Shown here in pieces: positions 14,346-20,867 of a DNA stretch of 64,000 bases. Made by a program: the position numbers and the translations under genes. The notes beneath the pieces are model-generated. The model searched no databases and had not been told where the DNA came from. It saw only the letters and a program-made list of their open reading frames with translations. The first letter of the stretch is position 1, and every line of letters starts with the position of its first letter. The stretch is from Bacteroidota bacterium (GTDB lineage: Bacteria; Bacteroidota; Bacteroidia; UKL13-3): assembly GCA_027484685.1 (NCBI GenBank), contig JAIXSO010000059.1, positions 1 to 64,000 of the forward strand. Direction: 5' to 3'.

Positions 14346-14453
14346 GTAACTTTTTTACTGACACCAAAAATAAACGCAATTTTATAATTACAAAGTAATA
14401 TTATTATAAAGTTTAATGACAATAAAAATGGGTTATTGGTTCAGTTCTTAAAA
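14346..14453. other. start of a long gene-poor interval
   Basis: The interval 14346-14891 lacks a normal gene. Bases 14346-14453 are AT-rich with no recognisable element; the rest is taken up by the repeat copies and the orphan signal-peptide fragment listed separately below. The upstream region of the minus-strand gene ending at 14345 is here, but no clear -7 box is visible. Confidence 0.4.
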
Positions 14454-14512
14454 GGTGCGGGAGCGTCATCCTGATTCCACCAAAGCGGATAAAGGAACTT
14501 TACACGGTGTTT
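14454..14512. repeat. dispersed repeat family R1, copy A
   Basis: About 58 bases, ggtgcgggagcgtcatcctg... through ...acacggtgtt. The same unit recurs at 14595-14652 and 20788-20845. The three copies differ at only a few positions, including the second base of the gattccNcc core and a few positions in the tail. No open reading frame runs through them. Confidence 0.85.
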
Positions 14513-14594
14513 TTTCCGCTCCTTATAAAGAGCTTTCCTGCTTTAGCAGGACAGGCTGTTCCTCAGCATGACCCTGATTAGTGTTTTGTTTATC

Positions 14595-14652
14595 GGTGCG
14601 GGAGCGTCATCCTGATTCCTCCAAAGCGGAAGAAGGAACTTTACACGGTGTT
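14595..14652. repeat. dispersed repeat family R1, copy B
   Basis: Second copy of the R1 unit, in direct orientation with copy A. The preceding bases (cagcatgacc, then gttttgtt) are also shared with copy C at 20788, so the real unit in B and C is longer than in A. Confidence 0.85.
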
Positions 14653-14655
14653 GTT

Positions 14656-14779
14656 TAGTCCTCGGTTGCTGTATTCACCAATCGATTAGGAGTGATTGTA
14701 GGGACACCAACCACGGACATAAAAAACTGAATCCGTCATGCAAGGCATCTCCTTAATTTGGCAACCAAGTTAGCTAATG
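14656..14779. repeat. dispersed repeat family R2, copy 1
   Basis: Begins tagtcctcgg and ends ...gttagctaatg. It aligns with 20626-20722 over its whole length except for a 26-base insertion (about 14690-14720) that contains gggacaccaacc. Together with the other copy it brackets the accessory block 14892-20241. Confidence 0.8.
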
Positions 14780-14816
14780 CACAAGCAAATAATAGTATAG
14801 CAATGAGTGTTTTCAT
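14736..14816 (-). pseudogene. orphan lipoprotein signal peptide running into repeat R2
   Basis: On the minus strand ATG 14816 starts MKTLIAILLFACALANLV..., a textbook lipoprotein leader with lipobox LFAC, but the frame runs into the R2 repeat and stops after 26 residues at 14736. It looks like the 5' end of a lipoprotein gene whose body was replaced or cut off where the repeat begins. It could also be chance, since short leaders are easy to meet in AT-rich DNA. Confidence 0.45.
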
Positions 14817-15404: not shown

Positions 15405-15420
15405 AATTGTTATTTTTATA

Positions 15421-15447
15421 AAAGGGCTTGCCCTTAGCAAACCCTTT
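15421..15447 (-). terminator. terminator-like hairpin, copy 1
   Basis: AAAGGGCTTGC...GCAAACCCTTT can fold as an 11-bp stem with G-T pairs. It lies between the stop of the lipoprotein gene at 15454 and the start of the next gene on the minus strand. Related hairpins follow the two neighbouring lipoprotein genes (16289 and 17111). Confidence 0.6.
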
Positions 15448-15453
15448 TGTTCT

Positions 15454-16200
15454 TTATTTAAAATCTAGGGTACATATTGCTAAATTCAATCCTTGGCTAC
15501 TAAATGGAACATATATATCTTTAGTGTATTCTTTACTTTTAACTCCATTAGAATAATAATAATATTTTAGTGTATTAATTTTTGAGCATTCTGCTGAGAA
15601 TGAAGAATAATATGTATCCTCGCTTGTAAGAATATATTTAGGTATATTATGTTCATAGACACTAACTGTATTATTGCTAACAAACAATGAATCAATATTT
15701 TTATCTAAAGCAGTACTTTTGTAAATTTGATATTTTACTTCACATGTTGGTTGCATCTCTATGGTAAATTTAAAATTGGTTTTAGTACTATCATTATGAT
15801 AAATATATTCACCCCCTGAATATAATTCATCATTTCTTAAACTATCTATAATTGCTGAAGAATCTTGACTGCTGCCCATTGCTATTGCATAGAAAATGTT
15901 ATTTAAATTTTGAAATAGTAATGATTTTATCTCGAATTTAACATCACCATTAGTATTAGTTTGAAAGTACTGAATAATTGAATCTTTATAACTCATACCA
16001 CTTTGACTCCACGTTCTTTTAAAAAAACATAGATTACAATTTTTCATTGGACTTTTGTCGCTTAATTTTTGAACATGCACCTCAAAAACCTTGTATTCAT
16101 TAGGGTCTTCAGTAATAACAGTATTTGGTTTATCTTTTTCGCAACTAACTATAATTATTATAAGAAAAATGGGTAATATTATTTTATTTATCGCTTTCAT
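15454..16200 (-). CDS. lipoprotein of a three-member tandem family, member 3
   Basis: A 248-residue lipoprotein when started at ATG 16200 (MKAINKIILPIF...); the ATG at 16224 lies inside a relic sequence and is rejected. Lipobox IVSC, Cys20. The body shares blocks with the two upstream genes: an early KVFEVHVQKLSDKSPMKN, a WSQSG patch, and near the C terminus KYYYYSNGVKSKEYTKDIYVP, followed by a short LDFK end. The N-terminal part resembles a small immunoglobulin-like or CarboxypepD-like strand set. It is about 57-70% recognisable against its neighbour at 16322 by eye, so recent tandem duplication is likely. No catalytic residues. Confidence 0.85.
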   Translation of the reverse strand: MKAINKIILPIFLIIIIVSCEKDKPNTVITEDPNEYKVFEVHVQKLSDKSPMKNCNLCFFKRTWSQSGMSYKDSIIQYFQTNTNGDVKFEIKSLLFQNLNNIFYAIAMGSSQDSSAIIDSLRNDELYSGGEYIYHNDSTKTNFKFTIEMQPTCEVKYQIYKSTALDKNIDSLFVSNNTVSVYEHNIPKYILTSEDTYYSSFSAECSKINTLKYYYYSNGVKSKEYTKDIYVPFSSQGLNLAICTLDFK

Positions 16201-16211
16201 AACTTTAGTTT

Positions 16212-16286
16212 TTAAGGTGTACATTCACATATATTGGCATAAAACTCGCCTCCTGCCTCTACTTCAAAGCCACCTTTTAGTTTTAA
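16212..16286 (-). pseudogene. 75-bp relic of a GH16-type gene 3' end, copy 1
   Basis: The minus strand reads 24 codons ending GGEFYANICECTP then a stop at 16212-16214. This matches the last residues of the glycanase gene at 17821 (GGEFYAAICECTN then stop). It has no start of its own, and a stop codon lies just upstream in frame. The relic ends 11 bases before the ATG of the lipoprotein gene at 16200, the same arrangement as the intact glycanase and the lipoprotein at 17812. It is a fossil of a duplication, not an expressed gene. Confidence 0.75.
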
Positions 16287-16288
16287 TT

Positions 16289-16316
16289 AAAGGGCTTGCC
16301 CTTAGCAAACCCTTTT
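16289..16316 (-). terminator. terminator-like hairpin, copy 2
   Basis: Near-identical to 15421-15447 (AGGGCTTGCCCTTAGCAAACCC). It follows the lipoprotein gene ending at 16322 on the minus strand and precedes the relic at 16212-16286. Confidence 0.6.
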
Positions 16317-16321
16317 GTTCT

Positions 16322-17023
16322 TTATTTAAAATCTAATGTACAAGTTACTATATCTAAACCTCTACTGCTGTATGGTATATAAATATCTTTAGTGTATTCT
16401 TTGCTTTTTATGCCATTGGAATAGTAATAATACCGAATGGTATTGGTCTTGGAACAGTCCGCACCCATTTCAGTATAATACTCTTTTTCTTCTGAGTACA
16501 TTACTTTAGAGAGACAACACTTATTAAGTACCAGTATTGAATCAATATTTAAACTATTCCAATTAACTAAATCACATTGTAGATTAACTCTGCAAATTGG
16601 TTGAACTTCAATTAATTTATTATCTGTTTTTTTTGTGTGATAAACTTCTATTCCGCCATAATAGTCACTGTTTTCGGTACTGTCAACGTGATAGTAACTA
16701 GTAATATCATAAAAATAGTTAACAGAATCATAAATTTTTCCGTTTTCCACTTTAAAAATGGCATCTCCATTGTCATTTGTTTTGTTTGTTGAAAGATATG
16801 ATATTTTATAACTCTGTCCGCTCTTACTCCATGCCGTTTGAGCTAAATATAGTCTAAAATTCTGCATAGGACTTTTATCTGATAACTTTTGCACATGTAC
16901 ATTAAAAATTTTGAATTGGATTGAATCTTCTTGGGGTGGAGCTTGGGTTTCTTTGTTATCTTTTTCGCAACTGGTAAATACGATTGCAATTAGTGTAATA
17001 GCTATTACATGTATGTGTTTCAT
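16322..17023 (-). CDS. lipoprotein of a three-member tandem family, member 2
   Basis: A 233-residue lipoprotein started at ATG 17023 (MKHIHVIAITLIAIVFTSC, lipid Cys19); the ORF's first ATG at 17047 falls in the relic. It has the same blocks as the neighbours: FKIFNVHVQKLSDKSPMQNFRL, WSKSGQSYKI, KTDNKLIEVQPICRVNLQ, and YYYYSNGIKSKEYTKDIYIPY at the C terminus. Between these the sequence has diverged, as expected if the copies are drifting in specificity or merely decaying. A signal peptidase II site implies anchoring to the outer membrane. Its function is not known. Confidence 0.85.
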   Translation of the reverse strand: MKHIHVIAITLIAIVFTSCEKDNKETQAPPQEDSIQFKIFNVHVQKLSDKSPMQNFRLYLAQTAWSKSGQSYKISYLSTNKTNDNGDAIFKVENGKIYDSVNYFYDITSYYHVDSTENSDYYGGIEVYHTKKTDNKLIEVQPICRVNLQCDLVNWNSLNIDSILVLNKCCLSKVMYSEEKEYYTEMGADCSKTNTIRYYYYSNGIKSKEYTKDIYIPYSSRGLDIVTCTLDFK

Positions 17024-17034
17024 AATTTTATTTT

Positions 17035-17109
17035 TTAAGGTGTACATTCACATATATTGGCATAAAACTCGCCTCCTGCCTCTACTTCAAAGCCACCTTT
17101 TAGTTTTAA
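17035..17109 (-). pseudogene. 75-bp relic of a GH16-type gene 3' end, copy 2
   Basis: Same 24 codons plus stop as at 16212-16286; the two copies are nearly identical through the coding relic. Its stop is followed by 11 bases and then the ATG of the lipoprotein at 17023. No stop immediately precedes it, so the frame is open a little further upstream, but no start is seen. Confidence 0.75.
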
Positions 17110-17110
17110 T

Positions 17111-17140
17111 AAAAGGGCTCGCCTTAAGCAAACCCCTTTT
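17111..17140 (-). terminator. terminator-like hairpin, copy 3
   Basis: Variant of the 15421 hairpin (AAAAGGGCTCGCCTTAAGCAAACCCC region). It follows the lipoprotein gene at 17147. Confidence 0.5.
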
Positions 17141-17146
17141 ATTATC

Positions 17147-17812
17147 TTAAAATTCTAATTCATAATTTGTTCTACTAGTAAATTCATTACTTCTACTTAT
17201 AAAAATGTTTTTAGTGTATTCTTTGCTTTTAATACCATTTGTATAATAGTAATACTTTAAAGGTACACTCTCTGAACATTCTAAGTTTCCAAAAATATAA
17301 TACAGTTCAGTGTAATCTTTATTCATGTATTTTTCAATAGGCGTTTCCAAACACAAGGAATCTATGCCCATTGCCAAATATTTGTCTTGTGCTAGTGTAA
17401 CTCTTAAACTGCATGAACAACGAGTTTTTATATTTATTTTTTCATTATTATAAATTTGATATCCAAAATAGTATTTAAAATTATTATTAGTACTGTCAAA
17501 AACTAAAGTGTCCGGAATATAACTTTGAATACCATAATGTACATTTGGTTTATTAATTATTGCAGATGCTTTGAAAGTAAAACTAACATTTCCTTCGTTA
17601 TCAGTTTTATTAAATTCTAAAATTGAGTCCGTAAAGGTTCTGTAGTCAATCCATGTTCTTTGTTTAAAAAATAAATAAAAATTGGCTAGTGGGGATAGAT
17701 TTTTTGGAGTAACTATTTTAAACTCATAGGTTATATACTCGCTGGTAGGGGCGTTTTCTTTTTCGCAAGCAAAAAGAAATATTAATACTGAGAATAGATA
17801 TAGTTTTTTCAT
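17147..17812 (-). CDS. lipoprotein of a three-member tandem family, member 1
   Basis: A 221-residue lipoprotein, lipobox LFAC with Cys16. It is the most diverged member: it keeps the early FKIVTPKNLSPLANFYLFF block (aligned to VHVQKLSDKSPMQNFRL), the central WID/WSQ patch and the end block KYYYYTNGIKSKEYTKNIFIS. It lies 8 bases after the stop of the GH16-like gene (minus strand), so translation may be coupled to it. Its relation to the other two suggests that the unit [glycanase 3' end + lipoprotein] was copied twice. Role unknown; the glycanase neighbour suggests a link to a secreted polysaccharide system, which is inference. Confidence 0.85.
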   Translation of the reverse strand: MKKLYLFSVLIFLFACEKENAPTSEYITYEFKIVTPKNLSPLANFYLFFKQRTWIDYRTFTDSILEFNKTDNEGNVSFTFKASAIINKPNVHYGIQSYIPDTLVFDSTNNNFKYYFGYQIYNNEKINIKTRCSCSLRVTLAQDKYLAMGIDSLCLETPIEKYMNKDYTELYYIFGNLECSESVPLKYYYYTNGIKSKEYTKNIFISRSNEFTSRTNYELEF

Positions 17813-17820
17813 AACTTATA

Positions 17821-19203
17821 TTAGTTAGTACATTCGCAAATAGCTGCATAAAACTCGCCTCCTGGGAACACTTCAAAACCTTCTTTTAACTCAATACTGC
17901 CCTTAGCCCTTAGCGATACATTCATGCCATTGGTTACTTTGGCTTGGCAATTTGTACCCCCAAATATAATATTATTTTTTACACCATAGGTATAGGCATT
18001 AAAATCGTAAATGGTATTCGCATTTTGTATTACATTAACAGCATCGGTACATATTAACCTATATACCTTTATATAATCAATTTCATAATCAATTTTTTCT
18101 AGAGTCTTGTTTTCGGGCTCTGCTGTTTTACAAAAATAATTAGCCCCAAAGCCTACTATAATTTTCATATCAGAAAATGAACTTGGCAATGCATCTGGGT
18201 TATCTTTATGTCTGTATTGCATTACCCTATCATTATTATAATAAGTAGTTATATTATTATTTAACCATTCTAACGAAAATGTTTTAAAGTTAAACATATC
18301 TATATGCCTATCTTGATAAAATTTATTACCTTGACAATCTAAACCTCCCAAAAGGTTTGGATCACTTCTATTGCCATAATAGCCCGGCACATTGTATTTA
18401 GGAGCTTGCAAATTAATATGTGTATTGGAGGTCATCAAACCCCTACTCATGTCATTTTCAAATATATCAATTTCGCTATATATGTTTGGTTTCCATCCAA
18501 AAAGCCAGAAATTATAGCCAATACCTGTAAAATTAAAGTTAGCAGGGTTAGGAATAGGTAAAGGGGTTTTTATACGGCATTTTATTTCAAACCAACCATA
18601 CTTAAACCATTGGTTACTTTGCAGCATGCCTTCTGTATATCTATATTGATTTGTTGCCTCTACTGGTACTATTTTCTTTTGATAGCCAGATACCCCAGGC
18701 CAAGAATCAGGCTTTGTATTATCGTACTCAGCATCGGCAGGATATACAGGATACCAACCTTTAAAATTTTCAACTTTTTCCAATCTTAATACGCAGGAGG
18801 TTATGCCACTTGTTTGATTAAAAAAGTGAGATTGATAACCGGAATAAGAATATGGACCAGGGTAATCTTCAGGACTATTTATAAAATCATTTCCATCTAC
18901 CATACTAAAGTGTGTTTGAAAAAAACTAGTAACACTTGGGTCATAATTTTTTGCCCTCATGTTTTCGGGCAAGTAAGCCCAATAGTTCATATTATTGGGG
19001 TAACCTGTGGTTAATGCATTAGAAATAAACTCGGAGTTTAACTTTAATATAGTTACATTCCAGTTTTTATCGTTTCTTACAGGGTTTCCGCTTCCGTCAA
19101 GCAAATGACTGCCCGTTACTGTATCTATTTTGTAAGGCGATTGGGCTTTAGCCACCGCCATACCCATAAACAAGCCTATTATTATAAATAAGTACTTTTT
19201 CAT
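17821..19203 (-). CDS. secreted GH16-like beta-glycanase with a C-terminal sorting-type tail
   Basis: A 460-residue exported enzyme (signal peptide about 1-20, VAKAQ). The glycoside hydrolase family 16 signature is visible: EIDIFE at 244-249, whose Glu244 and Glu249 would be the nucleophile and the acid/base, with Asp246 between; before it WFKYGWFEIKCRIK (strand pair at 199-212) and after it a WLNNNITTYY strand and YEIDYIKVYR. Family members cleave beta-1,3- or 1,3/1,4-glucans, agarose or similar; the substrate here is not clear. The last 70 residues (VSLRAKGSIELKEGFEVFPGGEFYAAICECTN) look like a short strand-rich tail, not a standard Por-type T9SS domain, and the same end is copied as two relics downstream. 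Confidence 0.85.
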   Translation of the reverse strand: MKKYLFIIIGLFMGMAVAKAQSPYKIDTVTGSHLLDGSGNPVRNDKNWNVTILKLNSEFISNALTTGYPNNMNYWAYLPENMRAKNYDPSVTSFFQTHFSMVDGNDFINSPEDYPGPYSYSGYQSHFFNQTSGITSCVLRLEKVENFKGWYPVYPADAEYDNTKPDSWPGVSGYQKKIVPVEATNQYRYTEGMLQSNQWFKYGWFEIKCRIKTPLPIPNPANFNFTGIGYNFWLFGWKPNIYSEIDIFENDMSRGLMTSNTHINLQAPKYNVPGYYGNRSDPNLLGGLDCQGNKFYQDRHIDMFNFKTFSLEWLNNNITTYYNNDRVMQYRHKDNPDALPSSFSDMKIIVGFGANYFCKTAEPENKTLEKIDYEIDYIKVYRLICTDAVNVIQNANTIYDFNAYTYGVKNNIIFGGTNCQAKVTNGMNVSLRAKGSIELKEGFEVFPGGEFYAAICECTN

Positions 19204-19224: not shown

Positions 19225-20241
19225 TTATTTTAAAAGAATCATTTTTTTAGTATCTACCTCTTTATTATCAACCAATAAAGTATAGTAATATGAGCCAGCC
19301 CCTAAGTTACTTCCATCAATAAATATTGATTGTAAACCTTGCCCATTATTGTTTAGTTTAATGGCATTTAGTTGTTGTCCGTTTAGGTTATATATTATTA
19401 TCTTAGCATCGGTAGTAACAGTAGGTAGGTAAAATTTAACTTCGGTTTTATCGTTAAACGGATTGGGATTGTTTTGGTATAATAAAGGCAAGCCACTATT
19501 TAAGTTTTTAAAATCGTTTTCAGTTTTATTGGCCATATTATCAGTATTATTGGTTTTACCTACTTTACCAGTATTTATGCCGCAGCAGTTTTGCAATGGT
19601 ACCATATTGCTATTAATGGTATTTATTTGTGTTTGTAGTTGGTTGATAGTGGCTTGTTGTTGTTTAAAAGCCTCGGTTAATATAGGTAGTATACCCATGT
19701 AGTTAACACTATATAGGTCTATATTTGGATCGTATGAAACTAATTCTGGAAGTATTTCATTAACTTGTTGTGCTATGTAACCATATTGATCATTTTTCAT
19801 TCCTTGTGCTTGATTCACAGAATCTGGTTGACCTACTAAATATTGATTAGTAAAATTATATTTATAAGCATTTAAGGAATTAATTATACTTACAGGGTTT
19901 TCTATTGTTCTTATATTTTGTTTTATCCTTTGGTCACTATACCAAAATATTTGATTTAGTTTTAAATTTTGCGTATAAACCAAATTTAGTCGTTTGTCAT
20001 TTTTACCAAGTTGCAAATACACATCATTTTGTGGGTAAATTACCGCTCCATAATAATCTCCAGTCCAATCCAGCATTACATCAGTCCAATTACTGAATCG
20101 TGCTGTTCCTTCTACATCTATTTTGTATGTTGGAGTAGAAGTGTTAATTCCAACATTTCCATTGCTCAATACTTTTAATTGAGCACTTACTTGAGTGGCG
20201 GTTGCAGCTATAAGGCAACCTAGTAAAATAATTTTTTTCAT
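19225..20241 (-). CDS. secreted S74-chaperone protein with T9SS type A domain
   Basis: A 338-residue exported protein (signal peptide ending VSAQ). Near residue 103 SDQRIKQNIRTIENPVS matches the start of the intramolecular-chaperone (peptidase S74) domain of tail-fibre and endosialidase-type proteins, followed by YGYIAQQVNEILPELV and VNYMGILPILTEAFKQQQ, a coiled-coil-prone helix. This domain normally assembles trimers and is then cleaved. The C-terminal end (LLYQNNPNPFNDKTEVKFYLP onward to MILLK) is a type A T9SS sorting domain. A repetitive N-terminal stretch, LKVLSNGNVGINT, is a typical head of such proteins. It lies 21 bases before the GH16-like gene on the same strand. Confidence 0.85.
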   Translation of the reverse strand: MKKIILLGCLIAATATQVSAQLKVLSNGNVGINTSTPTYKIDVEGTARFSNWTDVMLDWTGDYYGAVIYPQNDVYLQLGKNDKRLNLVYTQNLKLNQIFWYSDQRIKQNIRTIENPVSIINSLNAYKYNFTNQYLVGQPDSVNQAQGMKNDQYGYIAQQVNEILPELVSYDPNIDLYSVNYMGILPILTEAFKQQQATINQLQTQINTINSNMVPLQNCCGINTGKVGKTNNTDNMANKTENDFKNLNSGLPLLYQNNPNPFNDKTEVKFYLPTVTTDAKIIIYNLNGQQLNAIKLNNNGQGLQSIFIDGSNLGAGSYYYTLLVDNKEVDTKKMILLK

Positions 20242-20625
20242 AATTTTTTTTATTAAATTGGTATAACAAACATATATTAATTAAAATTAAAGTATTACAT
20301 AAAATATAAATAATAATATAAAATAGTTCAAATACTGACCCACGTCAGTATTTTGCCCGTTTAAGCATATAAAAAGCCTCAATATGCTTAATATGAGGCC
20401 TATTAGTAGCGTATATTGTTAATTGTAATTACAAAAAACAAATAAATAACTTGAAAATAATTTTAAGTTTACTTTTATTTGTCTCAAATAAAATTGAACT
20501 CGCCTATGTTTTATGATGGTTTTTGGTATATTATTGAAATAGAATATATAAAAACGTATGAATTAGAATTATACTTACATAACATTCTAAAAAATTTACC
20601 CCTTGTCCAATCTCAATATATAATT
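20242..20625. other. AT-rich intergenic interval
   Basis: Nothing recognisable apart from a small hairpin at 20376-20399 (GCCTCA...TGAGGC). No start of a gene is apparent. The upstream control of the minus-strand gene at 20241 must lie here, but no clear -7 box was picked out. Confidence 0.5.
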
Positions 20626-20722
20626 TAATCCTCGGTTGGTGTCCTCACCAATCGATTTGGAGTGGAAAACAGAATCAGTCATGCAGCGCATCTCCTTTGT
20701 TCGGCAACTAAGTTATCTAATG
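20626..20722. repeat. dispersed repeat family R2, copy 2
   Basis: Aligns to 14656-14779 from taatcctcgg to ctaatg, without the 26-base insertion of the other copy. It is in the same orientation. The two copies enclose about 5.8 kb of minus-strand lipoprotein, glycanase and S74 genes. Confidence 0.8.
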
Positions 20723-20787
20723 GCAAGTAATCATTTATAGCCAAGAAGATGCTTCCAGCATGACCTCAAACTATGTTTTGTTCACAT

Positions 20788-20845
20788 GGTGCGGGAGCGT
20801 TATCCTGATTCCGCCAAAGCGGATTAAGGAACTTTATAAGGTGTT
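20788..20845. repeat. dispersed repeat family R1, copy C
   Basis: Third copy of the ggtgcgggagcg... unit, in the same orientation as copies A and B. It lies 65 bases after R2 copy 2. At the other end of the block the order is A, B, then R2, so the elements are not an exact mirror. Confidence 0.8.
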
Positions 20846-20867
20846 TCGATTTGCGTTTACTAACGAA

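Follow-up and report, generated by a model that had tools for sequence, protein, structure and literature searches.

Remnants of GH16-like gene ends ahead of lipoprotein genes in a small gene array of a Bacteroidota genome

The window analysed here, a stretch of 64,000 nucleotides from contig JAIXSO010000059.1 of a Bacteroidota genome of 4.5 Mb in 72 contigs (G000), carries a short array on its minus strand. It consists of a GH16-like gene, lipoprotein gene A, a hairpin, relic 1, lipoprotein gene B, a hairpin, relic 2, lipoprotein gene C and a final hairpin, in that order; both relics are remnants of a GH16 tail and have no in-frame start codon. The GH16-like glycanase gene (17821–19203, 460 aa) ends, according to profile matches, in a GCX_COOH (3-coathanger stack) domain. 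Lipoprotein gene A (17147–17812, 221 aa) starts 8 bases past the GH16 stop and is followed by a predicted hairpin at 17107–17144 (−17.9 kcal/mol), which was not called as an intrinsic terminator. Relic 1 (17035–17109) ends 11 bases ahead of lipoprotein gene B (16322–17023, 233 aa), and relic 2 (16212–16286) ends 11 bases ahead of lipoprotein gene C (15454–16200, 248 aa), whose first 58 or so codons are unusually like those of lipoprotein 3 in the same-genus genome G004. These spacings of 11, 11 and 8 bases are as previously reported, and a lipoprotein ATG stands 8–12 bases after a GH16 tail stop in all seven array units of three genomes (G000, G004 and a second same-genus genome, G009). The relics lie within 79-base blocks (17032–17110 and 16209–16287) that are identical to each other, and the ends of lipoproteins B and C share a further identical block of 47 bases, which includes the hairpin behind B (16289–16335 and 15421–15467). 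The hairpin folded behind lipoprotein C (15420–15448) has no relic after it. Elsewhere in the window, a dispersed modular intergenic repeat occurs at 14445–14780 and 20586–20860, and its 14580–14780 part has 40 matches in the same genome at E ≤ 0.001.

The GH16-like protein passes the GCX_COOH profile (NCBIfam NF045639) with 27.3 bits against a cut-off of 26, over positions 10–49 of 49; a literature search returned no paper on this coathanger domain. No Pfam match was obtained for the protein, and its relationship to GH16 was established by a three-sequence profile that matches kappa-carrageenase and GH16 structure chains (best E 8e-6). The protein contains EIDIFE, which would correspond to the catalytic ExDxxE motif of GH16; its structure model was unusable (pLDDT 31.9). 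At E 1e-20, the GH16 profile found matches in 3 of 395 genomes of the class, including this one. In other genera (L016, L017, L019 and L020, four of the seven loci listed with GH16-type genes), such genes adjoin small and, by eye, seemingly unrelated lipoprotein genes, and some of these loci are also near a chaperone/sorting-tail protein resembling that at 19225–20241 of the window.

The lipoprotein family is found in the arrays of the three same-genus genomes and as one isolated copy in G000, with weaker matches in G001 and G080. Its profile found 5 of 64 family genomes at E 1e-3 (G000 included, one of the five weak) and 4 of 64 at E 1e-6, the family-level and order-level sets being the same 64 genomes. 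Read by eye, the isolated homologues on contig 1 of G000 and in G001 have no GH16 tail ahead of them. The cut-off of the radical SAM-associated lipoproteins of TIGR04134 (39.8 bits) is not reached: lipoprotein B scored 21.4 bits and A and C went unmatched. No PDB sequence matched the lipoproteins; a structure model reached pLDDT 75.7, and the best seven Foldseek matches, led by pilin/adhesin domains, had TM values of only 0.08–0.29, so that no fold is claimed. Lipoprotein A is 31–33% identical to B, C and G004 lipoproteins 1 and 3, and the GH16-like gene has 54–55% identity to its counterparts in G004 and G009; these two are 66% identical to one another. On these identities, the first cassette (17147–19203, GH16 and lipoprotein A) looks either replaced or fast-evolving.

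By homology, both spacers are leftovers of GH16 gene tails. An earlier note on this DNA had matched them to the end of the GH16-like gene, and the match holds: 48 of 61 bases agree without gaps, against at most 35 in 2000 dinucleotide shuffles with placement allowed anywhere within the GH16 gene, and a DNA search of the own genome gives E 5e-8. Translated in register with the end of the GH16 gene, each relic gives KLKGGFEVEAGGEFYANICECTP-stop and the gene end itself ELKEGFEVFPGGEFYAAICECTN-stop, and the exact match to the GH16 gene of G004 begins at CTAAAAGG. The note's 24 codons plus stop per relic apply to the open codons of relic 2 but not to relic 1, which has 39, and clear homology spans about 22 codons plus the stop. 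Neither relic contains an in-frame ATG, GTG or TTG, and in relic 2 a stop codon stands directly upstream of the tail. On the GCX_COOH profile they score 17.2 and 16.9 bits, below the 26-bit cut-off, as fragments covering positions 29–49 of 49. The relics are thus homologous to part of a gene, shortened and without a start codon, as gene remnants are.

Another repeat family, named beforehand as the finding that would overturn this origin, is excluded as the source. At E ≤ 0.001, the relic matches only three places in its own genome (the two relics and the GH16 tail), all within the array; neither the search with the 76-aa tail (three matches at E ≤ 10) nor that with the GCX_COOH profile (seven matches at E ≤ 1) yielded a closer family. 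Across the genus, matches up to E 1 occur in all ten genomes, and those below 1e-4 only in G000 and G004.

Short relics are carried by two genomes only. The array of G004 runs GH16 gene, lipoprotein 1, short relic, lipoprotein 2, a remnant of 86 codons without internal stop, and lipoprotein 3; G009 has a single GH16 gene and a single lipoprotein gene. The proposed look for a relative with full-length sister glycanases was answered in part: an intact GH16 gene of the relic type exists in G004, but no array among 58 genomes holds two full-length GH16 genes (G000, G004 and G009 have one each). The 86-codon remnant shares 79% of its bases with the GH16 gene of G009 and 77% with that of G004. Its 86 codons differ from the G009 gene at 8 first, 9 second and 36 third positions, and this excess at third positions indicates that it worked as a coding sequence through most of its past. 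It forms an open frame of 89 codons with an ATG (L029:3882–4151) and, given this coding-type pattern of change, could still be expressed.

The nearest source of the relics is not the neighbouring gene. Over their last 66 bases, they differ at 2 positions from the G004 short relic, at 4 from the intact G004 GH16 gene, at 11 from the long G004 remnant, at 16 from the G009 gene and at 17 from their own neighbour, which points to a G004-type sister gene. A tree of the seven 72-base tails agrees, with weak support (55–63%) at the relevant nodes. The relics are also, as had been noted, nearer to each other than to the intact gene, being 100% identical over 79 bases, and the suggestion that both derive from a lost sister gene fits the intact G004 gene and the similarly placed 86-codon remnant. 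The genes behind the relics have a different age. Lipoproteins B and C share 46% of their residues, and their silent sites are near saturation: in the 112 codons whose first two bases agree, the third base agrees in 55%. The closest relative of C is G004 lipoprotein 3 (79%) and that of B is G004 lipoprotein 2 (52%). The lipoprotein genes are therefore far older than the identical spacers, and the 79-base identity ahead of both indicates that the relic block was copied between units.

These observations are probably best explained if the spacers are untranslated 3′ ends of sister GH16 genes, left by deletions and reshuffled by recombination. The ancestor would have carried several head-to-tail cassettes, each with one GH16 gene closely ahead of one lipoprotein gene. 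The inner cassettes would then have lost most of the GH16 gene, through deletions running from past the hairpin of the upstream lipoprotein gene into the GH16 tail; deletions of differing size would have left about 22–24 codons once and 86 codons another time, and remnants of two lengths are the expected outcome if complete cassettes suffered unequal deletions. The lipoprotein genes would have been retained and have diverged fast. Short blocks, namely the 79-base relic block and the 47-base hairpin block, would later have been copied between units and, by lateral exchange, perhaps also between species. A relic may persist simply because it does no harm where it lies, past a hairpin and ahead of a start codon within recombining DNA, and B and C would presumably be transcribed by read-through. 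So understood, the relics are fairly ordinary gene debris in a recombining array, and their odd feature is conservation between species.

That conservation is pronounced. The relics of G000 and G004 are identical at 64 of 66 bases, both differences falling at third positions. An NtrC-type regulator encoded in the window is 96% identical between the two species, and only 53% of its 146 four-fold sites are identical, which places the genomes far apart at silent sites. At 53% identity, the chance of so close a relic match is 1e-15, so neutral decay since the common ancestor is excluded. The relics differ less than neutral vertical descent permits; recent exchange would give an identical picture. 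Such lateral exchange is the first choice here, held with moderate confidence. Further tracts in the array look exchanged, among them the 47-base block shared by the ends of B and C. Near relic 2, third bases of lipoprotein C and G004 lipoprotein 3 agree at 46 of 52 sites in the first 58 codons and at 87 of 144 in the remainder (Fisher 1e-4; permutation p 0.001 for the best 50-site window), against a background of 297 of 429 in the NtrC gene. The leader that separates C from relic 2 resembles the G004 leader that follows the long remnant, while relic 2 is of the short type; a G004-type leader with a short-type relic suggests that the block replaced a longer tail there. Around relic 1 the exchanged tract would be very short: the sequence upstream is identical between the species at 40 of 50 bases, against 64 of 66 in the relic (Fisher p 0.004), and lipoprotein B behind it is 62% identical. 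The pattern there fits selection on the relic equally well.

It is possible, though rather unlikely, that the relic is instead a maintained cis-element, such as a binding site or a signal for mRNA stability or translation, which originated as a coding tail and has been preserved by selection. Its identity across species with far-diverged silent sites, its better conservation than the upstream spacer and the gene behind, and its presence before two genes in G000 would all follow from such a role. The same position in G004, however, holds a different tail (11 of 66 bases differ), lipoproteins A and 1 have coding tails ahead of them, no tail precedes two isolated homologues, and the third-position differences between the relics of G000 and G004 look more like a coding past. 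Searches for a signal were likewise negative. Folding of three spacers and four tails gave no RNA structure consistent between species, with z-scores of −1.19 for the relic 2 block of G000 and 0.02 for the G004 short relic. No Rfam family matched between 14300 and 18200, and 14 sigma-70-like sites were found where 14.6 were expected. For a Bacteroidota-type promoter motif, no site fell in the spacers, and two relaxed sites both lay within lipoprotein genes. No intrinsic terminators were called, though the hairpins fold. The idea that the tail serves as a ribosome-loading signal thus finds no backing, given the missing in-frame starts, the unremarkable folds and the two tail-less homologues. 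Exchange is preferred over selection because other tails occupy the same place before other units and isolated homologues have none, and because searches for a consistent RNA structure, an Rfam family, a promoter and a start codon all came out negative. In a further, unlikely variant, a dead tail would have become a cis-acting piece ahead of the lipoprotein genes and would overwrite the other tails of the array because it carries a signal that serves either expression or the recombination of lipoprotein units.

It is improbable that a lipoprotein gene was twice duplicated together with the final 25 codons of the GH16 gene next to it, as first proposed. Such events would account for the tail-to-ATG spacing and for a tail before every array lipoprotein, but a source closer than the neighbour exists, the lipoproteins have diverged far more than the relics, and remnants of unequal length exist. 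Dating by silent changes, which the same note had recommended, tells against it too: the B/C pair is old, and what was copied recently is the 79-base block. Translation of the tails as small coathanger-type peptides is very improbable, since the G000 relics offer no start codon and the tail of relic 2 has a stop just upstream, and the 89-aa frame of G004 shows by eye no signal peptide, even though that frame and the G004 short relic (23 aa) have in-frame ATGs and differences gather at third positions.

With an intact gene and remnants of 86 and 22 codons side by side in related genomes, the shrinkage and reshuffling of a GH16–lipoprotein array can be read from the sequence, and the relics are a small case, open to testing, in which non-coding gene debris decays more slowly than expected. 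Recombining loci of this general kind are reported for lipoproteins and surface proteins of Borrelia (PMC11389397) and as allelic exchange in Porphyromonas gingivalis (PMC5266723), where paralogous genes for surface lipoproteins or proteins likewise show exchanged tracts. The proteins of those loci are unrelated to the present ones, the present host is an environmental Bacteroidota, and nothing at this array indicates antigenic variation or phase switching. With the GCX_COOH domain, the relics share the last part of the profile, but their scores do not reach the cut-off and they lack a start codon. The decay of tandem duplicates leaves gene remnants in bacterial genomes, and the array resembles this process in having a start-less piece of a paralogue between genes that were kept, with a longer remnant in a relative. 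It differs in that the present remnants are conserved beyond neutral DNA and were apparently recopied between units.
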